From Ruegeria sp. AD91A (GTDB lineage Bacteria; Pseudomonadota; Alphaproteobacteria; Rhodobacterales; Rhodobacteraceae), in contig NZ_CP031947.1 in the NCBI RefSeq assembly GCF_003443535.1, positions 372,001 to 436,000 of the forward strand: a DNA stretch of 64,000 nucleotides, given 5' to 3'. Shown here in pieces: positions 49,694-64,000 of the stretch. Every line of letters begins with the position of its first letter. Position 1 is the stretch's first letter. Below the pieces are notes generated by a model. It was not told where the DNA came from, ran no database searches, and worked only from the letters and a program-made list of their open reading frames with translations. The translations under genes and the position numbers were made by a program.

Positions 49694-49745
49694 ATGTTGT
49701 TTTTGGATTTTTGATGAAAGCATATCAATTGAAGTGAGTTGGCGT

Positions 49746-52169
49746 ATGACAACGCATTCGGTCAGACATCTCATCATTGGCGGGGGCATCATCGGATGCT
49801 CAATCGCGTATCATCTCGCACGGTCCGGTGAGACAGATGTTGTTCTTCTGGAAAGGGCGTCCCTGACCGAGGGGGCCACCTGGCATGCGGCGGGGCTTGT
49901 CGGGCAGTTGAGGTCATCACGCAACACGACGCGGATGCTGAAACGGTCCGTGGCGCTGTATGATCGTCTGGCCGAAGAAACCGGGATGGAGTTCGACTGG
50001 AAGAAGGTTGGAAGCCTGCGCCTGGCGGCAACCAAAGAGCGGCTTCTGGAAGCCAAGCGTCTAGCGACAATGGCCCGCAGCTTTGATCTGGAGATGGAGA
50101 TAATCTCGGCGGCCGAGGCCAAAACGCTGTTTCCCTATATCGACGCGAAGGGATTGGAAGGCGCGGCCTTTATCGCCTCGGACGGTCATGTCGATCCCGC
50201 AGGCTTATGTCAGGCAATCGCGTCCGGTGCCCGGATGCACGGTGCCCAGATCCGCCAATCCGTGCAGGTTACCGATTTTGAAATCCGCAACAATCGCATC
50301 GCCAAAGTGATGACATCAGAAGGGGACTATGAAGCGGAAACCGTCGTTCTGGCCGCCGGAATGTGGAGCCGCGAGCTGGCCGCGAAACTCGGGGTCGTTG
50401 TCCCGGCCTGCGCCGTCGAGCATCAATACATCGTAACGGAACCCCTGCCCGACCCCGATCTTGTAAAACGCCTGCCAACCCTGCGGGATCCCGAGCGGCT
50501 GGTGTATTACAAGCCTGACGCGGGCGGACGACTAGTGATCGGCGGGTATGAGGACAACACACTGCCGTTCGGCGACAGGGGCATTCCGGGCGCGTTTGTC
50601 CGGCAGTTGTTGCCCGACAACCTGGAGCGGTTTGCGCCCCTTGCCGAACTGGCAGGTCGGGTTACGCCGGTCGTCAACACCGTTGGAATCCGGCAGGTCA
50701 TCAACGGCCCGATCCCTTATTCCGCAGATGGCGATTTTGTCATGGGATGGGCGCCCGAGCTGGGAAACCTGATGCTGGCGACCGGATTTCTGTACGGCAT
50801 CGCGGCAGGTGGTGGCGCGGGAGAGATGATCGCGGAGTGGATTGTTGAAGGCCGCCCGAGCCTTGATCTGTGGCCTCTGGACGTTCGCCGGTTCAGTCCG
50901 CATCACGCCACACGCGCCTTCATGTATCCCCGCGCGGTCGAACATTACGCGCATCATTACAAGATGCGATATCCGGTACAGGAGGCGGAAACGGCCAGAA
51001 ACCTGCGCCTGTCGCCACTGCATGAGCGGCTGAAGCAACATGGGGCGGTGTTCGGGTCAAAGAATGGATGGGAGCGGCCGCTCTGGTTCGCTCCTGTCGG
51101 TGTAGAGCCTGTGGATCAGTTGGATTTCCTGTCGCCGGGTTGGAAAGCCTATGCCGAGCAGGAACACAAGGCCGCGCGCGACGGTGTAGTTCTGATCGAT
51201 CAAACCAGTTTCTCAAAGTTCGAACTGATCGGTCCTGGCGCGCTGGAAGCCCTTCAAAACCTCGCCGTTTCAAACATGGACAAGCCGGATGGCACGGTGA
51301 TCTACACCCAATTGTGCAATGATCGCGGCGGCGTTGAAGCCGATATCACCGTCACCCGATTGGGGCGGGAACACTTTTATATCGTGACCGGGTCCGGATT
51401 CGGCGTGCATGACGCGGACTGGATCCGACGTCACCTGCCCCGCGACGGGTGCGCGCAGCTGATCGAAATGACATCGGCACGCGCCGTCATCAACATCTGC
51501 GGCCCCAAAGCGCGGGATGTGATGCAGACCGTTGCGGAAGAAGACGTCTCGAACCTTGCGTTTCCCTTTGCAACGGCCCGAGAGATCACTCTGGGAACGG
51601 CAAAGGTCCGCGCGATCCGTATAGGCTATGTGGGAGAGCTGGGATGGGAGCTGCATATTCCAACCGAGTTCGCCCTGCATGTCTACGACCTATTGTGGTA
51701 TGCCGGTCAGAACCATGGCATCCGCGACATCGGCTACCGCACGATCGAGTCCTTGCGGCTGGAAAAAGGCTATCTTTACTGGAGCGCTGACATCACCCCA
51801 GACTATTCACCAATCGAAGCAGGCCTTGGCTCGCGGGTACATTTGAAGTCCAAAGAGGACTTCATCGGACGGTCGGCGTTGGAGGCGCAGAAAGTGAACG
51901 GTCCTGACCGGCAGCTCTGTACATTCATCACTGAAGAACGGCTGCCGATCACCGGAGGGGAAACCATACTGCAGTCCGGCAAGACAGTCTCGCTGGCATG
52001 CAGCGGTGGATATGGGTTTACCGTCGGCAAGACCATCCTCTACGGTTATCTGCCTGCGGGACTGGCTGGTGGGTCAGATTTCGAAGTGGAGGTGTTCGGG
52101 GAACGCCACGCCATCCGCCGCGTGGACGGGCCGCTTTATGATCCAGCAAACGGCCGGTTGAAAGCCTGA
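49746..52169 (+). CDS. FAD-dependent amine oxidase fused to GcvT domain (dimethylglycine/sarcosine dehydrogenase family)
   Basis: The 807-residue protein has an N-terminal DAO-type FAD domain (LIIGGGIIGCSIAYHLARSG) with TWHAAGLVGQLR, in which the histidine is the covalent flavin site in dimethylglycine dehydrogenase. The C-terminal half is a GcvT-like folate domain (IDQTSFSKFELIGPGALE, GYVGELGWELHIPTEFA, GYRTIESLRLEKGY). It should oxidise an N-methyl amine and pass the methyl carbon to tetrahydrofolate. The exact substrate is open because Roseobacters have many such paralogues. ATG 49746 is chosen over GTG 49734. Confidence 0.87.
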   Translation: MTTHSVRHLIIGGGIIGCSIAYHLARSGETDVVLLERASLTEGATWHAAGLVGQLRSSRNTTRMLKRSVALYDRLAEETGMEFDWKKVGSLRLAATKERLLEAKRLATMARSFDLEMEIISAAEAKTLFPYIDAKGLEGAAFIASDGHVDPAGLCQAIASGARMHGAQIRQSVQVTDFEIRNNRIAKVMTSEGDYEAETVVLAAGMWSRELAAKLGVVVPACAVEHQYIVTEPLPDPDLVKRLPTLRDPERLVYYKPDAGGRLVIGGYEDNTLPFGDRGIPGAFVRQLLPDNLERFAPLAELAGRVTPVVNTVGIRQVINGPIPYSADGDFVMGWAPELGNLMLATGFLYGIAAGGGAGEMIAEWIVEGRPSLDLWPLDVRRFSPHHATRAFMYPRAVEHYAHHYKMRYPVQEAETARNLRLSPLHERLKQHGAVFGSKNGWERPLWFAPVGVEPVDQLDFLSPGWKAYAEQEHKAARDGVVLIDQTSFSKFELIGPGALEALQNLAVSNMDKPDGTVIYTQLCNDRGGVEADITVTRLGREHFYIVTGSGFGVHDADWIRRHLPRDGCAQLIEMTSARAVINICGPKARDVMQTVAEEDVSNLAFPFATAREITLGTAKVRAIRIGYVGELGWELHIPTEFALHVYDLLWYAGQNHGIRDIGYRTIESLRLEKGYLYWSADITPDYSPIEAGLGSRVHLKSKEDFIGRSALEAQKVNGPDRQLCTFITEERLPITGGETILQSGKTVSLACSGGYGFTVGKTILYGYLPAGLAGGSDFEVEVFGERHAIRRVDGPLYDPANGRLKA

Positions 52170-52180
52170 GGGAATGAACG

Positions 52181-53113
52181 ATGCAGAATGAACCAAAAAA
52201 TGAGATTATTCAGGTCCTTCGCAACGTGGCGGGGTTCGAAACCCTTGTTGAGGCGGACATTCACACCCAGCGGCTGGGTGGGTTAACCAATCTGGTCTAT
52301 CGCGTCGAAGGCGGGCCAAGGACGGTGGTTGTGCGTATCCCCGGTGAAGGCACCGAAGCCTATATCGACCGCGCGGTCGAAATCCACAACGCACGGGTGG
52401 CAGCAAAGGCCGGGGTCGGCCCCGAAGTTCTGTGGGCAGACGCGTCATCTGGCGTGATGATCAGCGATTGCGTGACCGACATCGTCACAATGACACCCGA
52501 GATTTTTGCGACGCGCCCGGGGTCTGCTGCCCGCGCGGGAAAGGCCCTGAAGCAGCTTCATGGCGCCCCTGAGCCGTTCAAGTTTCGGTTTGAGCTGTTT
52601 TCGATGATCAGCGAATACATGAAGGTGCTTGCGGACAAAAACGCCACCCTGCCAGAAGGTTACGCGGACGTCGTGGCAGAAGCGGCTCCGATCCGCGCGT
52701 TGCTGCGTGACAAACCAGGGACATTGGTCCCCAGTCATTGCGACCCGCTGTGCGAAAACTTTCTGGATGACGGCCAGCGCATGTGGATCGTCGATTATGA
52801 GTATTCAGGCATGAACGACGCCCTATGGGATCTGGGTGATCTGTCCGTCGAAGCCGGGTTGAGCGACGAGCAGGAACTCGAGATGTTGACGGCCTATTTC
52901 GGAAACCCGCCCAGCGATGCGCAGATCGGGCGTATGGTGATCTACAAAGCCATGTGTGATCTGCTGTGGACGCTGTGGGGATTGATCCAGCACGCGGATG
53001 AAAACCCGGCCGAAGATTTCTGGGCCTATGCCACAAGTCGGTTCGAACGGTGCAAGGCCCTGATGCTGGCTCCGTCCTTTGCGGCCCATGCGAGAGCCGT
53101 GGCGCAAGAATAG
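52181..53113 (+). CDS. Choline/ethanolamine kinase-like phosphotransferase
   Basis: The 310-residue protein has an N-lobe glycine-rich region (QRLGGLTNLVYRVEGGPRTVVVRIPGEGTE) and the catalytic Brenner motif HCDPLCENFLDD followed by IVDYEYSGMNDALWDLGDL, as in choline kinase/LicA. It transfers phosphate from ATP to a small amino alcohol or related compound. It follows the FAD oxidase by 11 bp and is probably in its operon. Substrate is not certain. Confidence 0.85.
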   Translation: MQNEPKNEIIQVLRNVAGFETLVEADIHTQRLGGLTNLVYRVEGGPRTVVVRIPGEGTEAYIDRAVEIHNARVAAKAGVGPEVLWADASSGVMISDCVTDIVTMTPEIFATRPGSAARAGKALKQLHGAPEPFKFRFELFSMISEYMKVLADKNATLPEGYADVVAEAAPIRALLRDKPGTLVPSHCDPLCENFLDDGQRMWIVDYEYSGMNDALWDLGDLSVEAGLSDEQELEMLTAYFGNPPSDAQIGRMVIYKAMCDLLWTLWGLIQHADENPAEDFWAYATSRFERCKALMLAPSFAAHARAVAQE

Positions 53114-53836: not shown

Positions 53837-53860
53837 ATGGACGGAGTCGCAAGACAATGA
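53837..53860 (+). CDS. Possible 7-codon leader ORF
   Basis: ATG 53837 follows AGGGGG at 6-bp spacing and encodes MDGVARQ then TGA. The stop overlaps the cyclase ATG as ATGA, so the leader could couple ribosomes onto the cyclase start, whose own SD is weak. It may alternatively be a chance ORF. Confidence 0.35.
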   Translation: MDGVARQ

Positions 53861-56800
53861 CGCGAGTCCTTGAGGCATCACCACGCATTTCAAAAGTCCT
53901 TTATCTGGCAGATCTGAATGACTATGCCACTCTGTTTCAGAGAGAGGGCGTGGATGACGACATTCTGGACGAGTTGACTGATCCGGAACTGCGTGATCTC
54001 GGGTTGACGGTTGGTGAAAGGAAGCGGTTTCGGAAGGCGCAGGCCAGGCTGAAATCACAGGAAGCTTCGACGCGGCCCGAAGTTCAGTCGAATGCCGAGC
54101 GCCGGCATCTCACTTTGGTTTTCTGCGATCTTGTGGGGTCGACACGGCTGGCTCAGCGATATGACCCGGAAGACCTGATGCAGATCATGAACCTGTATCT
54201 GGATACGGCGATCGGCACCTTGAAACAACACGGCTGCCACCTGGCCTATCGGCAGGGCGACGGCATCATGGTGTATTTCGGATACCCGAAGGCCATGGAA
54301 GATGACGCCGAGCGTGCTGTGCGGGCGGTATTGGAAACCATTGAAGCCGTTCAGAATCTTGAAAACGAGTTTGGAGAAAAGCTCGACCTGCGGGCGGGTA
54401 TTGCGACCGGTATGGTTGTTGTGGGAGTCGTTTCCTCGAAAAGCCTGGGATCTCAGGACTTTCTGGTAGGTGAAACGGCGAATCTTGCGTCCCGTCTTCA
54501 GGGGTTGGCCGAACCGGGTGAAGTGATCATTTCTTCCGAGACCTGGCGGCTGACCCAAGGTGCCTTTGAATTCGAACCACGTGGCAGCCATGAGCTGAAA
54601 GGCTTTGACAATCAGCGCAACGTGTACCGCGTGGTGTCGGAAATCATTTCCTCCAGCCGGTTCGACGCGCGGGTGGGTCAATCTGCGGTCGATCTTGTGG
54701 CCCGGCAGGACGATCTTTCGACTCTGACCCAACTTTGGAGCGAGGCGCAGGAAGGCTCAGGCAGGCTGGCGCTTGTCGGGGGTGCGGCAGGTATCGGCAA
54801 ATCAAGGCTGATCAAATCGCTGTCTGAAACGATCGGGGTCAAGCCCTTTACGTTGCAGTGCATCCCTCACCTGACCAGTCTTCCCCTGCATCCTATTGTA
54901 GGAGAGTTGAGGCGCGTTTCAGGTGATAAATCAAATGACAGCATCAGGTCTTCGATTTCCGACTTCGTGCAAACGGCCTCTCGTCTGAGTGAAGCCGATT
55001 TGCCCGTTCTTCTTGATCTGGCGGGTGTGGAGACCGGCGCCCCGACAGAGTCGGACCCGTTGAAGAAAGCGCGCAAGTCACTTGACGTGATGCTGCGCAG
55101 TCTGGGCAGCCTGTGCGACAGGCGCGGTACTTTGTTGTTGGTGGTTGAAGACGTTCATTGGGCCGATGCTACCACATTGGACGTCCTGGATGCGCTTGCG
55201 TCAGCTTTGAGCAACTTTCCGGTACTGGTGGTTCTGTCCCATCGACCTGAATACGAACCTCCGGAACATTTCGAGAGCCGAGCCGCACGCATTAATCTGT
55301 CTCCGCTTGGCAACACCGAAGCATCCGAACTGGTTCGACGCGTGGCTGAGCCATACAGTTTGCCTGTCATCCTGATCAGGCAGATTATCGAGAAGGCGGA
55401 TGGCGTGCCGCTGTACATCGAAGAAATGACAAAGGCGGTTTTGGACCAGCTTCCCCAGGACGCCCCGATCAATGCCGAGGTTCTGGATGCGCTGAGCGTC
55501 CCGGCCACCCTTCAGGACTCGCTGATGTCGCGTCTTGACCGGATGGAAAATGCCAAGCCGGTCGCCCAGCTCGGATCGGTTATCGGACGCAGTTTCACCG
55601 CTCAGACGATACACGCGGTCGCGCATGCAGATATGGATGTAGAAAGCGCCCTCATGCAGCTTATGGCGGCTGGCGTCGTGCTGATTACCAGCGATTCAGG
55701 GTCGGCCACATACACGTTCAACCACGCGCTGGTTCAGGATACAGCCTATAATTCGTTGCTTCGGGAAGACCGGCAGAAGGTGCATCTGAAAATTGCCCGG
55801 GCCTTGCTGGACGGTCACCAAGCATTCGGCAGTCCGGCCCCCGATACCGTCGCGCATCATTGCGATCTTGGCGGATTGAAGGATGAAGCCGTTGCGAATT
55901 GGGTCACTGCAGGTGAACTGGCATTGTCCCGGCTGGCGAACCTGCCTGCGATTTCCGCTTTCCGGGCCGCCCTGCGCAACATCGGAACCATGGCGGCCAA
56001 CGCAGATCGCGATGGATTCGAGCTTCGGGTTCAGATGAATATTCTGCCCGCCTATATGGCGATCTACGGGTGGTCGGCCGACCAGGTCGGAGAAACTGCT
56101 GCCAGGGCAATGGAACTGGCCCAGTCTTTGGGCGACGGTGAAACCCTGTTCGCCGCTACCTTCTGCCGCTGGACCAACTTCTTTGTTGGCGGTCAGATGA
56201 ACCGAGCGATGGAAATGGGACAAGCACTGGATATGATGGCAGGCATGTCCGCTGACCCCGTCGCCAACGTTCTTGCGGCGCGGGCCCTGAGCTTTACTCA
56301 TTACTTCCGTGGGGAATTTGCTGAATGCGAACAACAGCTTGAGCGCGCTTTCGCCCTGATCACACCCGAGCTGGATATGGCCATGATGCCCATGACCCAG
56401 TCTTCCACGACCGCCTCTTTGCTGGCCATTCAGGGATGCCTGCTGTGGCAGCAGGGGAAATTCGAAAAGGCCGAAGCCGCGCGTCTGGAAGCCATCGAGG
56501 TCAGCAGGGCGCTGAATCATGCACCCAACCTTGTCTACGTCATGGGCGCTTGCAGCATGTTCCTGCCCTATGCGGGTGAATGGGACCGGCTTGATGTGAC
56601 GATGAAGGAAGCCAGAAAAGTCGCGGATGAGGAAGGGTTTCTTTACCTTCACGCGATGCAGGACATCTACATGGGTCTCGCGCAAGCCGGGAAAGGCGAT
56701 ATCGCAGGTGTTCCGGAACGCATCGAGGCATGCATGAACCTGATCTCCAAATCTGGTGGAAACTTTACTTTTCCTCAGAATCAGATTGTTCTGTCTGAGT

Positions 56801-57057
56801 TAATGATAGATCACGGAGATATTGATCAGGCTTTGGACCGGCTCGAAACCGTTTGCATTCCCGGTTGGGAACGTGGCGAGATGCTGAACAAACCTGAATA
56901 TCACCGTGTGCGAGCAAAGGCTTTTGCCGCAAAGGGGGATTTGGACGCTGCAATTGGCGAGGCGAAACAAGCGCTTTTGCTTGCCCAAGATTGCCGCGGT
57001 GTCGTTCAGGAGCAGCGGGCGCGCAATCAGCTGGACAGATTGAGTGAAACAAAATGA
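53857..57057 (+). CDS. SAM domain-class III nucleotidyl cyclase-AAA ATPase-TPR regulator (paralogue)
   Basis: The 1066-residue protein has the same layout as the one at 6.5 kb: a SAM-like region (about 12-62), a cyclase domain (about 80-255), a STAND ATPase (about 280-590) and a TPR-like C-terminus. Metal-binding D91 (FCDLVGST) and D135 (RQGDGIMVYFG) and the GETANLASRLQ segment are intact. Walker A is GGAAGIGKS (K315) and Walker B LLLVVEDVHW. The stop lies 54 bp before the encapsulin-like gene on the same strand, with only a weak 6-bp hairpin (57070-57090) between, so the two are probably in one operon. Confidence 0.87.
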   Translation: MTRVLEASPRISKVLYLADLNDYATLFQREGVDDDILDELTDPELRDLGLTVGERKRFRKAQARLKSQEASTRPEVQSNAERRHLTLVFCDLVGSTRLAQRYDPEDLMQIMNLYLDTAIGTLKQHGCHLAYRQGDGIMVYFGYPKAMEDDAERAVRAVLETIEAVQNLENEFGEKLDLRAGIATGMVVVGVVSSKSLGSQDFLVGETANLASRLQGLAEPGEVIISSETWRLTQGAFEFEPRGSHELKGFDNQRNVYRVVSEIISSSRFDARVGQSAVDLVARQDDLSTLTQLWSEAQEGSGRLALVGGAAGIGKSRLIKSLSETIGVKPFTLQCIPHLTSLPLHPIVGELRRVSGDKSNDSIRSSISDFVQTASRLSEADLPVLLDLAGVETGAPTESDPLKKARKSLDVMLRSLGSLCDRRGTLLLVVEDVHWADATTLDVLDALASALSNFPVLVVLSHRPEYEPPEHFESRAARINLSPLGNTEASELVRRVAEPYSLPVILIRQIIEKADGVPLYIEEMTKAVLDQLPQDAPINAEVLDALSVPATLQDSLMSRLDRMENAKPVAQLGSVIGRSFTAQTIHAVAHADMDVESALMQLMAAGVVLITSDSGSATYTFNHALVQDTAYNSLLREDRQKVHLKIARALLDGHQAFGSPAPDTVAHHCDLGGLKDEAVANWVTAGELALSRLANLPAISAFRAALRNIGTMAANADRDGFELRVQMNILPAYMAIYGWSADQVGETAARAMELAQSLGDGETLFAATFCRWTNFFVGGQMNRAMEMGQALDMMAGMSADPVANVLAARALSFTHYFRGEFAECEQQLERAFALITPELDMAMMPMTQSSTTASLLAIQGCLLWQQGKFEKAEAARLEAIEVSRALNHAPNLVYVMGACSMFLPYAGEWDRLDVTMKEARKVADEEGFLYLHAMQDIYMGLAQAGKGDIAGVPERIEACMNLISKSGGNFTFPQNQIVLSELMIDHGDIDQALDRLETVCIPGWERGEMLNKPEYHRVRAKAFAAKGDLDAAIGEAKQALLLAQDCRGVVQEQRARNQLDRLSETK

Positions 57058-57111
57058 GAACAATATTGACTGCCCCGCCGAATTGGGCAGCAGCAGCGAG
57101 AGGGATTTGAA

Positions 57112-57993
57112 ATGACCAATGCATTGGATTGGAATGAAGATCAGTGGAGCGCCGTGAACAAGGCCGTCCATGACGAGGCACTGCGCGCCCGGGTGGCAGC
57201 CAGTTTCCTACCCCTATACGGACCGCTGCCCGCAGACACGCAATCTGTTCCGCTGAACAAGCTCAGTCTGGTCGACAACTCATCTGGTGCATCCAAAGAA
57301 CGTCTTGACGTGAACGATTATGACACCTTGCGCCTTACAACCGTATCGGTGAACGTGTACCTGAAAGGTGCACAGGTGGCTGATCCGGAACTGGCCGCAG
57401 CTCAGATCATGTTCCGCCGAGCAGCCGCTGTTGTGGCCCGGGTAGAGGACGACATCATTTTCAACGGTCAACCCGGTACCGGACAAGCCCCCAAACACGC
57501 TGGCGGCGCGGGCACCTCACTGCCGCAGATCTATACGATCAGCGGCGGTGGCAAATATCCGGGATTGCTTGAAGCGGGCGAAAGCAAAACCAATACCGCG
57601 ACCAAAAAGGGCTATACCGGAACCGATGTTTTCGAGGCCGTCGTCGCGGGCATCAGCACGCTGGAAACGCATGGCTATCTGGGCCCCTATGCCTGTGTGA
57701 TGGGCAATGGTCTGTTTCGGGCAGCTACCACTCCGCTGCCGAACTCGATGGTACTGCCTCGTGACAGCATCCTCCCGTTCCTGGACGGGCCCTTGCTGCG
57801 TTCCAGCACCCTGCCCCCGAACAAGGCAGTGCTTGTGTCCCTGCTGGGTGCACCAGTTGAAATCGTCGTGCCCTCGGATATCGCCGTGAAGTATCTGCAA
57901 ACCTCTGCCGAAGGAGAGCATATCTTCCGCGTGCAGCAGAAATTCCATCTCAGGATCAAGGAAGCTGAGGCCATCTGCACCATCACGTGCTGA
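57112..57993 (+). CDS. Encapsulin-like shell protein (HK97 fold, family 1 type)
   Basis: The 293 residues match the encapsulin/linocin M18 pattern along the whole length. The N-terminal helix region (DWNEDQWSAVNKAVHDEALRAR) is followed by a YGPLPADTQSVPL turn and an E-loop (residues about 68-95). The spine helix ends VARVEDDIIFNGQPG (110-122), then come FEAVVAGISTLETHGYLGPYACVMG and the A-domain end PVEIVVPSDIAVKYLQ...FRVQQKFHLRIKEAEAICTI. There is no cyclic-nucleotide-binding insertion as in family 2B. A GAGAGGG lies before ATG 57112. An extra, Gly/Thr-rich stretch at 122-168 is longer than in Thermotoga encapsulin. Shell formation is inferred from fold; its usual cargo genes (DyP, ferritin-like) are absent. 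Confidence 0.8.
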   Translation: MTNALDWNEDQWSAVNKAVHDEALRARVAASFLPLYGPLPADTQSVPLNKLSLVDNSSGASKERLDVNDYDTLRLTTVSVNVYLKGAQVADPELAAAQIMFRRAAAVVARVEDDIIFNGQPGTGQAPKHAGGAGTSLPQIYTISGGGKYPGLLEAGESKTNTATKKGYTGTDVFEAVVAGISTLETHGYLGPYACVMGNGLFRAATTPLPNSMVLPRDSILPFLDGPLLRSSTLPPNKAVLVSLLGAPVEIVVPSDIAVKYLQTSAEGEHIFRVQQKFHLRIKEAEAICTITC

Positions 57994-58007
57994 CCGGAGA
58001 TCGGGCC

Positions 58008-58835
58008 GTGCGCGAGTTTACAGATCGGGGCGTAACGCTGCGTTGGTCCGAGGCGATCAACGCAGACGGTCTCAATCGGGTACTGGTGGAAGCAGGTCCC
58101 GCAGTGTCGTCGCATGACACGGTACGTCTGATCTGTTCGGAAAACGGAGGCCCCGAACGCGCCATTCGCGGGTGGCCCGTGTTACGAGACCCGCAAACCG
58201 GGTTTCAACAATTCGCAGCCATTTTGCCGTCGGTGATACAGGAAAAATCCTTGTCCTGGCGTCCGGTGCTGACCTCGGGTGGTCGCGAGTACGACCCTGG
58301 ACCCGAAGAAGCGCCTGAAGCACCCCCCCCACCAACACCCGCGAAACCTTCGGCACAGTCACCCGTTCTGGAGCATGTCGCCAAATTCGTCGTGCCGTTC
58401 ACCAGCAATTTTTCCCCTTCGGGCGAAACACCGGACGGAATCTGGCTACACTTCGCGATCAAAGAGGGGGGTACCGTCGAAGGCCCACATTTGAAAGGAA
58501 CGATCGAACCGATTGGCGGAGATTGGATGCGCGTGCGTTCCGATGGTGTGGGACTGCTTCATGCAAAGGCGCTTATCAAACCGTCCGCGGGGAATGCTCC
58601 GATCCTGTTCGAAGATACGGGTGTGTGTGACTTCGGCCCGGACGGTTATGCGGCCTTGGCCAAGGGCAACCTGCCCGCTTCGGCCCCGGTACGGCTTGCT
58701 CCGCGTTACCTGACCTCAAACCCGCATTACAGCTGGATGAATCGGTTGCAGGGTTTTGGCATTGGCGAAGCCAGCCTGTCAGACATTACCCTGCGCTTTG
58801 ACGTTTATTCCGCGAAAGGAACTTCCGATGCCTGA
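58008..58835 (+). CDS. Two-domain protein with C-terminal DUF3237
   Basis: The product is 275 residues from GTG 58008, chosen for GGAG 9 bases upstream (GTG 57987, overlapping the encapsulin stop, is the alternative). Residues about 1-95 form an unrecognised beta-rich domain. A proline-rich linker (EEAPEAPPPPTPAKPSAQSP) follows, and about 126-270 match DUF3237, with GGTVEGPHLKGTIEPIGGDWMRVRSDGVGLLHAKALI and HYSWMNRLQGFGIGEAS. DUF3237 is a small beta-barrel of unknown function. There is no signal peptide. Its place between shell and oxidoreductase suggests an accessory of the compartment or of the pathway. Confidence 0.75.
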   Translation: MREFTDRGVTLRWSEAINADGLNRVLVEAGPAVSSHDTVRLICSENGGPERAIRGWPVLRDPQTGFQQFAAILPSVIQEKSLSWRPVLTSGGREYDPGPEEAPEAPPPPTPAKPSAQSPVLEHVAKFVVPFTSNFSPSGETPDGIWLHFAIKEGGTVEGPHLKGTIEPIGGDWMRVRSDGVGLLHAKALIKPSAGNAPILFEDTGVCDFGPDGYAALAKGNLPASAPVRLAPRYLTSNPHYSWMNRLQGFGIGEASLSDITLRFDVYSAKGTSDA

Positions 58836-60951
58836 AAAGGTTGTCATTCTTGGAGGCGGCGTGGCCGGAATGAGCGCCGCGCACGAACTGATTGAACGCG
58901 GGTTCGAGGTAGAAGTCCACGAACGCCAGTTGATCCCGGGTGGCAAGGCCCGCAGCATCCCAGTGATGAAGGGTGAAGGGGACCATGGTTCGAAAGCAAA
59001 TCACATCAAGGCGCTTGAAAGATGGGCTGAGATGGATGGGGCCAGTTATCCGCCCGGCGTGAAACGCCCCTGGCTGCCCGGCGAACATGGATTTCGGTTC
59101 TTTCCGAACTTTTATCGGCATATCACGGACACGATGGCCCGTACGCCGTATTACGACAAGGGGACATGCTTTGACAATCTGGTCCCGACCACTCAGGTTC
59201 TGGTCAGCCAGTTCGATAAACCCGGCATCATTGTCCCAGAACGGTTTCCCCGCACGCTCAAGGATGTCTCGGATGCCTTCAAGACGATTGCCTTCGCGCT
59301 CTCGCCGAGGGACCAGATTGCGTATGAGGATGTCGAGCATTTTGTCGCCTGCATGTGGCGGATCGCGAGCTCCTGCAAGGAACGCCGGTTCGACGAATAT
59401 GAACGGATCGGCTGGTGGGATTTCATCGGCGCGCAAGACCGTTCCGAAGCCTATCAAAAGTTCCTTGCCATCGGCCTGACCCGTTCATTGGTGGCCGCCA
59501 AGGCCACGACAGCCAGCACGAAGACAGTGGGGGACATTGCGATTCAGCTTCAGCTGGGCATTGCCACGCCCGAGCCACACTGCAACAGGCTGCTGAACGG
59601 GCCCACCAATCTCGTCTGGATTCAACCGTGGCTGGATTACCTGAAAAGCAAGGGGGTCGTTTACAAGTTTGACTCCAAAGTTACGGGCATCGAGTGCCGG
59701 AACGGGCGGATTATCGGCGCGACAGTCGAACAGGACGGAGAAGAAAAACAAGTCACCGGGGACTGGTTTATCAGCGCGATCCCGATTGAACGCATTGCTC
59801 CACTTGTGACCCCGGAAATGATGGCGCTCGACCCGGCCCTCGCCAAGTTGTCTCTGCTGGCCGAGGACGTACAGTGGATGAACGGCATTCAGTTCTATCT
59901 GACCAAGGAAGTTGAACTGACCCACGGCCACGTCATCTTCATTGACAGCCCATGGGCTTTGACCGCTGTGTCGCAAAAACAGTTCTGGCACCAGATTGAT
60001 TTCGACAACTGGGCTGAAGGAAAGACCAAAGGCCTGCTGTCGATCGACATTTCCGAATGGGACAAACCCGGTCTGAACGGGAAGACAGCGCGTAATTGCA
60101 GCCGGGAAGAGATTGCAAGCGAGGTTTGGGAACAGGTCAAGCGGGGCATCAACGTGGATGGCCAAACCGTTTTGCGGGACGAGGATATGCATTACTGGTT
60201 CCTCGATCCCGATATCGTTCAAGACCCGAACGACCCCAAGCGTCAAAGCAATGTCGAACCCTTGCTGGTCAACCGTATCAACAGCTGGCGCTTGCGCCCG
60301 GATGCGGCCACGCTCATCCCGAATTTCTTCCTGGCATCGGACTATGTCCGCACTTTCACCGACCTTGCCACGATGGAAGGGGCGAACGAGGCCGCGCGCC
60401 GTGCCGTCAACGCCATCCTTCAGCGCAGTGGATCGGATGCACAACCCTGCCAGATCTGGGATCTGCACGAGCCCGATATCCTCAAACCGCTGCGTGCCTA
60501 TGATTACGCCCGGTATCAGGCTGGCCTTCCGTGGGACAACCGGTTCGCTGTTGCGGTCGAAGCCGCGCTGAAAATGGGTCAGGACACGGCAGGAGTTGAT
60601 CGTGGCGGTGATGGCCCCCTTGCCGCCATAGGAGAACCGGCAACGGAATATTCAAAACCCGGCGGCGTCACCGAGGACCCAGCCATTGCCGAAGCGCTTA
60701 GAATGATTTGCCCGCCGAAAGAGCTGTACGACCTCATCGCGAATTACGAACCCACCACGGATCTTCCAATCCCGGGGGATGAGCTTGCCGAAGATGTCGC
60801 GTATGATCTGGGTCGGGACAGCGGTCAATCAGATGCCTTGTCCAGGGCGATACCAATTTCGGATGCACCGCTCTCTGCTTTTGGCGCCGGTCCGGAACGA
60901 TCCGGCACGCCGGAAAACAAAAGTCGCGTGATCATCACCCAGAAGGGCTGA
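58828..60951 (+). CDS. FAD-dependent oxidoreductase (hydroxysqualene dehydroxylase/phytoene desaturase-like) with long C-terminal tail
   Basis: The 707-residue protein opens with a Rossmann FAD site (KVVILGGGVAGMSAAHELIERGFEVEVHERQ) and GGKARS, then HGFRFFPNFYRHITDTMARTP, a pattern of the HpnE/carotenoid-desaturase-related group acting on isoprenoids. The catalytic part seems to end near residue 585. About 120 further residues are low-complexity, acidic and proline-rich, and hold two copies of D[GA]PL[AS]A[IF]G at 595-602 and 679-686. ATG 58828 follows AAGGAA and overlaps the preceding stop by 8 bp. The isoprenoid substrate is inferred from family and from the prenyl synthase next door. Confidence 0.82.
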   Translation: MPEKVVILGGGVAGMSAAHELIERGFEVEVHERQLIPGGKARSIPVMKGEGDHGSKANHIKALERWAEMDGASYPPGVKRPWLPGEHGFRFFPNFYRHITDTMARTPYYDKGTCFDNLVPTTQVLVSQFDKPGIIVPERFPRTLKDVSDAFKTIAFALSPRDQIAYEDVEHFVACMWRIASSCKERRFDEYERIGWWDFIGAQDRSEAYQKFLAIGLTRSLVAAKATTASTKTVGDIAIQLQLGIATPEPHCNRLLNGPTNLVWIQPWLDYLKSKGVVYKFDSKVTGIECRNGRIIGATVEQDGEEKQVTGDWFISAIPIERIAPLVTPEMMALDPALAKLSLLAEDVQWMNGIQFYLTKEVELTHGHVIFIDSPWALTAVSQKQFWHQIDFDNWAEGKTKGLLSIDISEWDKPGLNGKTARNCSREEIASEVWEQVKRGINVDGQTVLRDEDMHYWFLDPDIVQDPNDPKRQSNVEPLLVNRINSWRLRPDAATLIPNFFLASDYVRTFTDLATMEGANEAARRAVNAILQRSGSDAQPCQIWDLHEPDILKPLRAYDYARYQAGLPWDNRFAVAVEAALKMGQDTAGVDRGGDGPLAAIGEPATEYSKPGGVTEDPAIAEALRMICPPKELYDLIANYEPTTDLPIPGDELAEDVAYDLGRDSGQSDALSRAIPISDAPLSAFGAGPERSGTPENKSRVIITQKG

Positions 60952-60955
60952 GCCT

Positions 60956-62026
60956 GTGAAATCCGGAACCGCGCATTTGGATCCTGCGGCGAAACAGGAT
61001 TTTCTTGAAACGCTGACCTCATACGGGGATCAGGCGCGCGAAACGCTGTTGGGCTTGTTGCCGACGGGTGAGCCTCAGGCCTATCTGTATGGTCCGATGC
61101 GCGATTATATCGAAACCTCAGGCAAGGGTCTGAGGCCTGCGCTGTTACTGGCTACATGCGAAGCCTTCGGTGGAAACAGCGAGAATGCGAGGGTCTCGGC
61201 CGCAGTTCTTGAGTTGCTGCACAATGCCTTTCTGATCCATGACGACATCGAAGATCAAAGCGATTTCCGGCGCGGGCGCGAATGTATGCACAAGCGGCTT
61301 GGGGTTCCACTGGCGATCAATACCGGCGACGGGATGCAATCGCTGGCCCTGCGCCTGCTGCGTCAGAACCTGGGACCGTTGGGCCCGGAAACCGGTATGC
61401 GCGTGGTTGATGAGTTCGACCATCTGTTGCAGCAATCCATCGAAGGTCAGGCGTTGGAGCTTGGCTGGATACGAGACAATCGACTGAATGTCGATGCATC
61501 CGACTATCTGAGGATGTGTCTGAAAAAGACCTGCTGGTACAGTTTCATTCACCCGATGCGTATCGGGGCCCTGATTGCGCGGCCACATGATGTCGAGTCC
61601 GGCGCGCTTAATCTGGATGATTTCAATGCCTTTGGCTTTTTCCTGGGTGCAGCGTTTCAGATTCAGGATGACGTTTTGAATCTCGTCGGCTCTCAGGACA
61701 GTTACGGCAAGGAAATTGGCGGCGACATCTATGAAGGCAAACGCACGCTGATGCTGGGCCAGCTTGGACTGAAGGCGGATGAACCTGAACAGGCACGGTT
61801 GGCCGAGATGTTGTCAAACCCGCGCGATACCCGGTCGACGCAAGATGTCACCTGGGTGCTGGAACGCATGAACCACTATGGCAGTATCCGCTATGCACAG
61901 GACGCGGCGAATGACCTGCTGGCTTCAGCCCGGAGTGAGTTCGCGCAGGTATTCGCGGGGACCAAAGACGGGCCGCGCGCGTTTCTTGGACAGTTCATGG
62001 ACTATCTCGTGAACCGTCAGGTCTGA
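60956..62026 (+). CDS. Polyprenyl diphosphate synthase (FPP/GGPP type)
   Basis: The 356-residue all-helical enzyme condenses isopentenyl diphosphate with allylic diphosphates. The first Asp-rich motif is D96DIED100 in LIHDDIEDQSDFRRG, and the second is D238DVLN242, a DDxxN variant also seen in GGPP synthases. K57-G-x-R60 in SGKGLRPALL binds diphosphate. Small A91 five residues before the first motif argues for a product longer than FPP, but chain length needs assay. GTG 60956 is the start, 4 bp after the oxidoreductase stop. Its 3' end overlaps the convergent gene by 10 bp. Confidence 0.9.
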   Translation: MKSGTAHLDPAAKQDFLETLTSYGDQARETLLGLLPTGEPQAYLYGPMRDYIETSGKGLRPALLLATCEAFGGNSENARVSAAVLELLHNAFLIHDDIEDQSDFRRGRECMHKRLGVPLAINTGDGMQSLALRLLRQNLGPLGPETGMRVVDEFDHLLQQSIEGQALELGWIRDNRLNVDASDYLRMCLKKTCWYSFIHPMRIGALIARPHDVESGALNLDDFNAFGFFLGAAFQIQDDVLNLVGSQDSYGKEIGGDIYEGKRTLMLGQLGLKADEPEQARLAEMLSNPRDTRSTQDVTWVLERMNHYGSIRYAQDAANDLLASARSEFAQVFAGTKDGPRAFLGQFMDYLVNRQV

Positions 62027-62487
62027 GCGCCCACCACCTCGAAAATCACCACAAGCGAGGTCTGGTCCGTTCCTGTACAGGCGATCCGGCCATGATATTC
62101 ACCGGGTTCGGTGAGATCGGGTATGGTGACGGCAACAGCAACATCAGTTGCTTCCCCAGGGTCAAGCAGGATTTGTGGCGGGATCACACTGATGCGGTTC
62201 GCCGGCAGAATGTCGCCGTTCGAATTGGTCAGATCGCCAGGTTCGAACTGCATCTGAACAGGGGCCGCACCTTCCGGTGCCTCAAAGGACAGCAGAATGG
62301 TGGCGGTACTGCCGGGATGGCAGGTTTTGCGGCACATGAAGGGACCGTCCAGATGCTGCTGCGGGCCCCGTTCCCTGTCAAGCACACGGCGTGCTATATC
62401 GGAAATCGGTTGATTGTCGGGCTGCGGCGCAATCGGGCTGACCGCACGAGATACACTAACATATGGTTTTCGTTCGAAATACGGCAT
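62017..62487 (-). CDS. Uncharacterised protein with Ig-like C-terminal region
   Basis: I do not recognise this 156-residue protein. The N-terminal 45 residues are polar and likely disordered (PIAPQPDNQPISD). The rest looks like a beta sandwich: GSTATILLSFEAPEGAAPVQMQF, IPPQILLDPGEATDVAVAVTIPDLTEPGEYHGRIACTG and TSLVVIFEVV, in the manner of bacterial Ig-like add-on domains. A C-x3-C pair (MCRKTC) occurs before it. No signal peptide is seen. It converges with the prenyl synthase, with stop codons overlapping by 10 bp, so it is separate from that operon but may belong to the same system. Confidence 0.6.
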   Translation of the reverse strand: MPYFERKPYVSVSRAVSPIAPQPDNQPISDIARRVLDRERGPQQHLDGPFMCRKTCHPGSTATILLSFEAPEGAAPVQMQFEPGDLTNSNGDILPANRISVIPPQILLDPGEATDVAVAVTIPDLTEPGEYHGRIACTGTDQTSLVVIFEVVGAQT

Positions 62488-62549: not shown

Positions 62550-63329
62550 TCACTTCCCTTTCCAGACCGGATCCCTTTTTTCGGCGAAAGCGCGCGCGCC
62601 TTCCAGCTGATCTTCACTGGCATAGAGAACGTCCACAGTACTTAGCTGACGCTTAGTTATGCGGTTCATGGCATCCTGAAACTTGGCATCTTCGGCATCA
62701 CGTACGATTTCCTTGATCGCCGCGTAAACCAGAGGTGGCCCCGAGGCCAACAGCCGGGCCAGCTCCCAGGCGCGGTCCATCAGTTGATCTGCCGCGATGA
62801 TCTCGTTCACCAGACCCCAGCGATTGGCTTCTTCGGCGTCGAACCACCGGCCGGTAAGCAGCAGCTCCATCGCGATGTGATAAGGGATACGCTTGGGCAG
62901 TTTGACGCTGGCCGCATCCGCGACAGTCCCCGAGCGGATTTCCGGCAGGGCGAATGTGGCATGATCTGCGGCAAGGATCACGTCCGCTGACAGGGCCAGC
63001 TCCAGCCCGCCGCCACAGGCGATGCCGTTGACGGCTGCGATCACGGGTTTGTTCAGGTCCCGCAGCTCTTGCAAGCCGCCGAACCCTCCGACGCCGTAGT
63101 CCCCGTCCACAGCATCACCGTCGGCCGCTGCTTTCAGGTCCCAGCCCGGACAAAAGAATTTCTCTCCTCCGCCCGTCAGAATGGCCACGCGCAGCTCCGG
63201 ATCGTCGCGAAACTCGGCGAACACCTCACCCATTCTGCGACTGGTGACAAGATCGATGGCATTGGCCTTGGGCCGGTCCAGTGTCACCTCAAGGATCGTT
63301 CCGTCGCGGCGGGTTTTGATCGGGTCCAT
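62550..63329 (-). CDS. Enoyl-CoA hydratase/isomerase family protein (CaiD-like)
   Basis: The 259-residue crotonase-fold enzyme has the oxyanion segments FFCPGWDLKAA and AVNGIACGGGLELALSADVILAADHATFALPEI, with the acidic residues at the CaiD/crotonase active site. It resembles carnitinyl-CoA dehydratase. It lies 3 bp from the acyl-CoA synthetase stop, so the two form a unit that probably activates and dehydrates an acyl compound such as carnitine. Substrate not certain. Confidence 0.88.
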   Translation of the reverse strand: MDPIKTRRDGTILEVTLDRPKANAIDLVTSRRMGEVFAEFRDDPELRVAILTGGGEKFFCPGWDLKAAADGDAVDGDYGVGGFGGLQELRDLNKPVIAAVNGIACGGGLELALSADVILAADHATFALPEIRSGTVADAASVKLPKRIPYHIAMELLLTGRWFDAEEANRWGLVNEIIAADQLMDRAWELARLLASGPPLVYAAIKEIVRDAEDAKFQDAMNRITKRQLSTVDVLYASEDQLEGARAFAEKRDPVWKGK

Positions 63330-63332
63330 ATC

Positions 63333-64000
63333 TCAGGCCTTTCTTATCAGAGCATCCACGGCAACGGCCTTGTCCGGCGTGCACAGGAGCGGGTTAATCT
63401 CGACCTCGCCAAGCGTGTCGGCGTTTTGCATGACATAGGCCTGAACAGCCTCGACTGCGGCAATGATTGCATCCATATCAGCAGCCCGTTGGCCGCGATA
63501 GCCCGCCAGCAACGGGACGATTTTCAATTTGCCGAGCGCGGCGCGGATGTCTTCGGACGCGCTGGGTACCAGCATTGACACCGTGTCGCGCAGGACTTCG
63601 GTCAGTACCCCCCCCGCCCCCAATGTCAGGACAAACCCATGCGCGGGGTCACGGACGATGCCGACCAGAAGTTCGGCGACGGTTCCGGTGATCATCTCTT
63701 CGATCAGGATATCTTCGGTGCCGATGTCAGCGGCCACACTGGCCACGTCTTTGGTTTGAATGCCCAGCCGAACAGCGGCGTGTTCGGATTTATGCGCAAG
63801 CCCAACACCTTTCACGGCAAAGGGGGCTTCCATGTCCTGCGCTGCTGCGAGGGCTGCCGCTGGCCCGGAAACCGTGCAGGTTCGGGGGATATGCAGGCCG
63901 CATTCAGCCAGCGCCTGCTTCGACTCGCCTTCGGTCAGGGTTTGGGTCGCCTCAGCCGTTCCCGGCAACCAGACGGGATGCGTGGCAGGGGCCGAGACCT
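63333..64000 (-). CDS. NDP-forming acyl-CoA synthetase, C-terminal ATP-grasp part (partial)
   Basis: The frame is open to the right edge, so this is the 3' part of a longer gene, usually about 700 residues. The visible 221 residues form the ATP-grasp subdomain of ADP-forming acetyl-CoA/acyl-CoA synthetases: FAVKGVGLAHKSEHAAVRLGI, ILIEEMITGTVAELLVGIVRDPAHGFVLTLGAGGVLTEVL and GEVEINPLL. It would activate a carboxylic acid for the CaiD-like enzyme downstream. TTG 63968 is not taken as the start since coding continues upstream. Confidence 0.88.
   Translation of the reverse strand, partial: VSAPATHPVWLPGTAEATQTLTEGESKQALAECGLHIPRTCTVSGPAAALAAAQDMEAPFAVKGVGLAHKSEHAAVRLGIQTKDVASVAADIGTEDILIEEMITGTVAELLVGIVRDPAHGFVLTLGAGGVLTEVLRDTVSMLVPSASEDIRAALGKLKIVPLLAGYRGQRAADMDAIIAAVEAVQAYVMQNADTLGEVEINPLLCTPDKAVAVDALIRKA

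Follow-up and report, generated by a model that had tools for sequence, protein, structure and literature searches.

The 64,000-nucleotide stretch of Ruegeria sp. AD91A DNA analyzed here (contig NZ_CP031947.1, positions 372,001 to 436,000 of the forward strand; hereafter the window) carries an operon in which an encapsulin shell gene of the family 1 lineage stands between a cyclase-type regulator gene and genes for a DUF3237 protein, a flavin adenine dinucleotide (FAD)–dependent oxidoreductase, and a prenyl diphosphate synthase. Sequence comparison leaves next to no doubt about the shell and about the conservation of the operon. We propose that the oxidoreductase is the putative main cargo of the shell, loaded through a changed tag and a changed pocket, and give this reading a probability of about 0.68. 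Known family 1 encapsulins deal mostly with peroxide and iron, and the operon may be a kind of bacterial nanocompartment that has not yet been studied.

The shell protein scored 90.8 bits against PF04454 (cut-off 24.3) and passed the NCBIfam family 1 model encap_f1 narrowly (105.7 bits; cut-off 100), which bears out the family 1–type shell of the preliminary description, itself made from the sequence alone. PF04454 was matched by all 36 aligned shell relatives; of the most distant operon copies, the acidobacterial one (L016) passed encap_f1 with 101.7 bits and the nitrospirote one (L017) failed with 83.4. Compared as a single sequence with solved encapsulins, the shell gave E values of about 5e-15, and our shell profile A1 matched Myxococcus xanthus EncA, an HK97-fold protein in the Protein Data Bank (PDB), at E = 1.2e-27 in two stretches spanning both halves, so that an HK97 fold is predicted by homology. 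A family 2 encapsulin was rejected, only PF04454 and encap_f1 matching the shell at E ≤ 0.001 and no family 2 model reaching its curated cut-off; the absence of a cyclic nucleotide monophosphate (cNMP)–binding insertion, also claimed earlier, agrees with the lack of any PF00027 match. A phage capsid was likewise rejected, there being no PHROG match for the shell, the DUF3237 protein, or the Ig-like protein of a sixth conserved gene.

Profile A1 gathered 13 related loci (L005 to L017), from Ruegeria (five), Tateyamaria, a Rhodobacteraceae metagenome-assembled genome (MAG), Tabrizicola, Methylocapsa, a Rhodobacter MAG, Roseiarcus, an Acidobacteriaceae MAG, and a Nitrospiraceae MAG. The order cyclase regulator, shell, DUF3237 protein, FAD oxidoreductase, prenyl synthase is identical, orientation included, in 12 of the 13 (L005 to L016), 11 of them alphaproteobacterial and one acidobacterial, where a contig end cuts the cyclase gene. 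On the 4.5-kb nitrospirote contig the genes are rearranged, with the DUF3237 gene before the shell gene, and the contig stops inside the oxidoreductase gene. Flanking genes are shared only within the close Ruegeria strains (Ruegeria faecimaris, L009, not among them) and within the Tabrizicola/Rhodobacter pair; elsewhere there are just a few 26 to 32% matches of common enzyme families. Because the order recurs while the flanks differ outside these small groups, chance does not account for it. The five genes of the window, described earlier as colinear with overlaps or tiny gaps, were confirmed on one strand with their domains by Pfam; the gaps between them are 54, −7, −8, and 4 bases, and those in 12 other loci range from −8 to 76 bases with start codons of our choosing. 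Pairwise distances of the six genes, counting the sixth gene, correlate at r of 0.94 to 0.99 over 12 copies (the window and L005 to L015), a value that partly reflects common descent, and dN/dS against four Ruegeria copies is 0.04 to 0.16 for all six, with dS saturated in some pairs. We count this apparent joint inheritance and purifying selection in favor of the system proposed here. Promoter and terminator scans gave results no better than chance.

What singles out the oxidoreductase as the likely cargo is a candidate targeting tail that it carries and that was seen neither on the prenyl synthase (13 copies) nor on the DUF3237 protein (15 sequences). Its C terminus consists of a long variable linker and then the motif [R/K]-phi-x-phi-x-Q (phi, hydrophobic), mostly followed by K, and this strict form is present in 13/13 operon copies. 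Among 8000 protein database candidates scored, 1350 were relatives of the shell and 6457 of the oxidoreductase, and the best 120 of each were examined. After seven oxidoreductases had been dropped (three fusions and four partial or odd sequences), the strict motif was found in 93 of 113 homologs, with K directly after Q in 79 of the 93, and a relaxed form in 105; the closest relative listed is 96% identical. Below 70% identity, 21 of 29 sequences (from a set of 114 in which one partial sequence was kept) have the strict motif, against 0.022 expected from shuffled tails. The linker measures 17 to 169 residues, and alanine, glycine, proline, and serine make up 48% of it versus 27% of the core (86 of the 93 motif carriers; in the other seven no core end could be placed or fewer than five linker residues were found). 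According to the available sections of PMC11202242 and PMC10960027, targeting peptides are usually C-terminal behind a flexible linker, and the former gives a consensus of L(F)xV(I)xxL(I) with a minimum of LxI(L)x. The tail RLRVTQIG fits the long consensus, RLSVRQID and RISLTQIE fit it or nearly so, and tails with QK fit the minimum.

Two control genomes of an acidobacterial group (G1468 and G1486) encode oxidoreductase homologs (52 and 48% identical) that stop right after the core without a tail, and PF04454 was matched in neither genome, versus all eight operon genomes. When oxidoreductases were paired with listed shells by equal size of the longest contig (>3 kb), presumably a shared contig, all 17 so matched carried the strict tail; a jitter control gave a mean of 0.38 such pairs and at most three. 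The 17 include two loci already counted (L009 and L011) and the complete chromosome of Methylocapsa polymorpha.

The shell pocket was examined against the Klebsiella pneumoniae shell, in which, in the available text of PMC10960027, Arg34, Asp38, Asp229, and Ile230 touch the targeting peptide. When Arg34 or Asp229 was mutated there, loading was almost lost; Ile230 also had an effect, and Asp38 was largely dispensable. Arg34 and Asp38 are called highly conserved in DyP shells, a statement about those shells rather than a requirement of the family. Pocket positions were placed by R-x-x-x-D spacing and alignment, and compared with 16 canonical shells, some near-identical, scoring 257 to 353 bits against encap_f1 (L031 was dropped because nothing was alignable and L054 because it is the same gene as L019). 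The Arg34 place holds A in 112 of 121 operon-clade shells versus R in 16/16 canonical ones, and at the Asp38 place 120 of the 121 have P, the other a gap, versus D or E in 16/16, so that canonical shells read R-R/K-x-x-D/E where the window shell has A-S-F-L-P; the acidobacterial copy also has A and P. At the Asp229 place, all 121 keep D or E. By alignment, then, one half of the pocket is altered and the other half retained, a pattern that fits a changed tag/pocket code. Such a code would, in a speculative extension, keep the cargo of two shells from mixing in Roseiarcus, where a canonical family 1 shell (encap_f1 353 bits; L055) occurs beside the divergent one (L015) in a single genome (G1052). 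Separately, G798 contains a 253-residue open frame (L031) with a divergent shell-profile match (55 bits) and neither the GPL stretch nor the canonical pocket.

Several points weigh against loading of the oxidoreductase by its tail. The strict motif is missing from 20 of the 113 homologs and the relaxed one from eight, three of which end in LRIVQKK. There are just two encapsulin-free controls, both more distant, and the 19.9 kb covered at either control homolog contain no prenyl synthase, so the tail tracks both partners. Three oxidoreductase–prenyl synthase fusions, which may or may not have an encapsulin gene nearby, have no tail, and the nitrospirote shell retains R at the Arg34 place together with P at the Asp38 place. 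Canonical peptide binding by the operon shell would probably fail, since the Arg34 place is A and mutation of this residue nearly abolished loading in K. pneumoniae; an equally good reading of the changed pocket is that peptide binding at this site has been lost or takes place at another site. The Arg34 mutant is the reason that we hold the cargo assignment lower, and the following rival higher, than we otherwise would.

That rival is that the tail docks the prenyl synthase, or the DUF3237 protein, and not the shell, whose cargo would be another protein or would carry another signal. It is a real one, given that every operon copy readable to the end has the tail along with both an encapsulin and a prenyl synthase. 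It would also account for the absence of the tail from the three listed fusions, where docking is needless, and from the two homologs without a nearby prenyl synthase, and it sits well with a shell without the arginine on which peptide binding depends in K. pneumoniae. On the other hand, published targeting peptides share with the tail both the phi-x-phi spacing and a flexible linker rich in alanine, glycine, proline, and serine, and the remaining pocket signature at the Asp229 place is kept; we consider docking unlikely. Still less probable is that the Ig-like protein is the cargo or a shell binder, with its PYFxR start as the signal and the oxidoreductase tail serving another purpose. All 14 aligned sequences of this protein do have a short invariant motif near the N terminus followed by a variable stretch, but the gene was not found in the acidobacterial locus and not seen on the short nitrospirote contig, its orientation and distance vary, and it has no enzyme signature. 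An ordinary family 1 encapsulin whose true cargo, a peroxidase or ferritin-like protein, is encoded elsewhere, the neighbors being merely coregulated, seems the least probable. Such proteins are the usual family 1 cargo. Cargo encoded outside the operon was proposed in one case (PMC8346489, section 7). The pocket is unlike that of canonical shells, however, and the gene order is kept across phyla. The known family 1 cargos, noted earlier as absent, did not appear in the Pfam scan either: in none of the nine proteins covered, from the operon and its neighborhood, was a DyP, ferritin-like, or IMEF family matched, the rest of the genome not having been scanned for cargo.

The preliminary description had proposed a compartment of a family 1–type shell with isoprenoid enzymes that could hold a hydrophobic or reactive isoprenoid product. 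Part of this stands: the shell is of the family 1 lineage and differs from family 2, and the operon that it shares with isoprenoid-type enzymes is conserved. Enclosure of all the enzymes is not what the sequences point to, the prenyl synthase and the DUF3237 protein having shown no such tail. The five-gene order of that description was upheld by the neighborhood comparison above, and the sixth gene and the oxidoreductase tail go beyond it. Coordinates are collected in Table 1.

Table 1. Features of the encapsulin operon, in window positions
Feature	Positions	Strand	Evidence
Class III nucleotidyl cyclase/AAA ATPase/MalT-like TPR protein	53857–57057	+	PF00211 82.6 bits; PF13191 69 bits
Encapsulin shell, family 1 lineage, 293 aa	57112–57993	+	PF04454 90.8 bits; encap_f1 105.7 bits
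Shell codons 30–34 (A-S-F-L-P), section of the predicted targeting-peptide pocket	57199–57213	+	Alignment; pocket residues as in the available text of PMC10960027
DUF3237 barrel-family protein with extra N-terminal region of ~110 aa and proline-rich linker	57987–58835	+	PF11578 74.3 bits, residues 126–266
FAD-dependent oxidoreductase, 707 aa, amine oxidase/desaturase type	58828–60951	+	PF01593 50.1 bits; PF01266 35.4 bits; PF13450 34 bits
Last eight oxidoreductase codons (RVIITQKG), candidate targeting peptide behind a variable linker	60925–60948	+	Tail motif comparison
All-trans prenyl diphosphate synthase, probably GGPP-type	60956–62026	+	PF00348 206.1 bits; DDIED and DDVLN motifs
Sixth conserved gene, 156 aa: N-terminal PYFxR motif, variable stretch, Ig-like domain	62017–62487	−	Orthologs in 11/13 loci; weak NPCBM_assoc/NEW3 matches

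The oxidoreductase had been described as hydroxysqualene dehydroxylase–like, a label that is now weakened: its score against the HpnE model TIGR03467 (82.5 bits) is far under the curated cut-off of 283, at which HpnE identity was rejected, and the genome of the window has only a doubtful SQS_PSY match. It shares with HpnE and with phytoene and zeta-carotene desaturases an FAD-binding Rossmann part and an amine oxidase–type domain, and differs from them in its C-terminal linker and tail and in the lack of a convincing squalene or phytoene synthase in the same genome. A PDB search with the oxidoreductase returned nothing at 1e-10, the best match (6e-7) lying largely in the FAD-binding N terminus, and by this comparison the family is without a close solved structure. 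The SQS_PSY match in the window genome is single and partial (75.9 bits, cut-off 26; 171 of 263 profile positions). In three of nine genomes (G000, G1047, and G1049, with L073 on G000:C1, L074, and L075) the only match has 70 to 77 bits over about 170 of the 263 positions in a frame of 265 to 282 codons; the other six have near-full matches. The partial frames contain a WWRD stretch known from NDUFAF6-like proteins. It is doubtful, on these matches, that the partial protein is a squalene or phytoene synthase, and squalene or phytoene is a less likely substrate in the window genome; if the protein is neither synthase, a prenyl diphosphate derivative becomes the likelier substrate.

The prenyl synthase is probably GGPP-type, as first described: its best PDB matches are named GGPP synthases (1wmw, E = 5.2e-46), and five residues before the first Asp motif it has an alanine, which by a rule that we assume to hold here favors C20 products. 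A polyprenyl transferase of the kind carried by family 2 encapsulins (NF041169) was rejected at 173.5 bits against a cut-off of 450. Because natural oxidoreductase–prenyl synthase fusions exist (P0225, P0229, and P0240; 981 to 1000 aa), the two enzymes may act in series. The DUF3237 assignment was confirmed (PF11578 gathering score, 24), with PF11578 matched by 15/15 aligned members at E ≤ 1. PDB relatives of this protein are 4pux, 3c5o, 3g7g and, weakly, PhnH (6jjs, E = 6e-4), a fungal DUF3237-type protein of herqueinone biosynthesis that, in the available text of PMC8704240, adds a phenol to a reverse prenyl group. The operon protein differs from PhnH in its extra N-terminal region, and the weak likeness suggests, by analogy, a role in cyclization or binding. 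An encapsulin-free relative of the DUF3237 protein in G1486 (L052) is without the N-terminal region; its gene adjoins the tail-less oxidoreductase gene on the opposite strand, and an AAA/TPR protein like the regulator (23% identity) is encoded ~6 kb away.

The cyclase-type regulator gene was correctly placed at the head of the operon, and its product is a probable signaling or regulatory protein by its domains. Its PF17874 (MalT-like TPR) score of 44.2 bits falls just short of the cut-off of 45, and a SAM-like N terminus is our reading of the sequence without a Pfam match. Both cyclase Asp residues that we take to bind metal are kept in 12/12 aligned copies. A second, distant homolog of the AAA/TPR part (~24% identity) lies near the acidobacterial operon (L016, 10517 to 13333). 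The final 10 bases of the prenyl synthase gene also belong to the sixth gene. Orthologs of the latter are inverted in ten loci and run in the operon direction in R. faecimaris, and in Roseiarcus the gene is ~2.4 kb away. P2, Y3, F4, and R6 are invariant in 14/14 aligned sequences. The Ig-like NEW3 model is matched by 11 of the 14 (best 6.3e-6), the window copy reaching 0.014 and 16 bits against a cut-off of 24.4. PDB matches are weak (glycosidases 3e-4 at best, viral envelope domains 0.02 or worse) and fall mostly in presumed Ig-like domains.

Judged by its shell sequence, the operon belongs with family 1, and the known cargo classes and canonical pocket are absent from it. It resembles other family 1 systems in a shell above the curated cut-offs, a single shell gene, and an enzyme with a linker and a short hydrophobic C-terminal motif. 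In contrast to them, its shells lie at the edge of the family, with encap_f1 scores of 105.7, 101.7, and 83.4 bits in the window, acidobacterial, and nitrospirote copies versus 257 to 353 in the 16 canonical shells; A and P occupy the Arg34 and Asp38 places, the presumed cargo gene is downstream of the shell gene, and the operon has six genes including cyclase, DUF3237, and prenyl synthase genes. Family 2B encapsulins, whose cargo is a polyprenyl transferase or a terpene cyclase, likewise have isoprenoid enzymes beside the encapsulin and share a cyclic nucleotide theme (a cNMP domain in 2B, a cyclase gene here), whereas the shell here has no family 2 model match and no cNMP domain.

With the window genome included in both counts, the shell turned up in 2 of 41 relatives and in 2 of 295 members of the family, and profile A1 matched 13 of 385 class members and 5 of 398 phylum members, with only 25 to 44 bits besides the window genome; NCBIfam scores place 15 of the 16 weak matches among the canonical family 1 shells (257 to 351 bits, cut-off 100), and the sixteenth (L031) scores 34.9. 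At E ≤ 1e-60 the oxidoreductase profile matched 1 of 198, 3 of 247, and 1 of 199 genomes in three other groups, the seed genome included each time. Because these genome-group searches scored only first-look candidates from each genome, they may have missed copies. The source genome comprises two contigs of 4,405,563 bases in all (C1, 3,662,296; the window contig C2, 743,267), and the sole plasmid match to the shell is on an 811-kb plasmid of Ruegeria sp. THAF33. The Tabrizicola oxidoreductase is 69% identical to the Roseiarcus copy versus 60% to the window Ruegeria copy, which fits horizontal transfer. We found no published description of the operon in the open-licence literature on encapsulins (titles and beginnings of abstracts), and the 90 family 1 systems without assignment of PMC8346489 may include it. 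Upstream of the operon, window positions 49734 to 53113 encode an FAD-dependent oxidoreductase (811 aa) and a choline kinase–like protein, a pair shared only with L006 and Ruegeria sp. THAF33 among the loci compared and so not part of the operon; downstream, enoyl-CoA hydratase and ATP-grasp acyl-CoA ligase–type genes (62550 to 64000, minus strand) are kept beside the operon in L005 to L008 only.

We envisage a horizontally spread, family 1–lineage encapsulin system for isoprenoid chemistry. Shell copies would assemble into an HK97-fold icosahedral compartment, as homology predicts, and the oxidoreductase would be loaded by its C-terminal [R/K]-phi-x-phi-x-Q(-K) in a luminal groove, as in family 1, the altered pocket presumably holding the tail differently from canonical shells. 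A C20-type precursor would come from the prenyl diphosphate synthase, which probably sits on the cytosolic side. More speculatively, this precursor or a derivative might enter the shell and be oxidized or desaturated by the flavoenzyme, with H2O2 or a reactive product staying inside; the DUF3237 protein might, by analogy with PhnH, bind or cyclize the product, and the Ig-like protein might be an accessory, perhaps bound to the shell. The cyclase/AAA/TPR protein, from its domains, would couple the operon to a cyclic nucleotide signal. Taken whole, the proposal is tentative, and we place it just short of an even chance: these shells would form a branch of their own at the margin of family 1 and enclose a flavin-dependent isoprenoid oxidoreductase, under a tag/pocket code barring cargo exchange with canonical shells, with cyclic nucleotide control and an Ig-like accessory or decoration protein.

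If true, a shell enclosing an isoprenoid flavoenzyme would broaden the roles of bacterial protein compartments and tie encapsulation to cyclic nucleotide signaling, and engineering would gain a second tag/pocket pair to use alongside the known one. Two encapsulin families would, in that case, have come to enclose isoprenoid chemistry independently.

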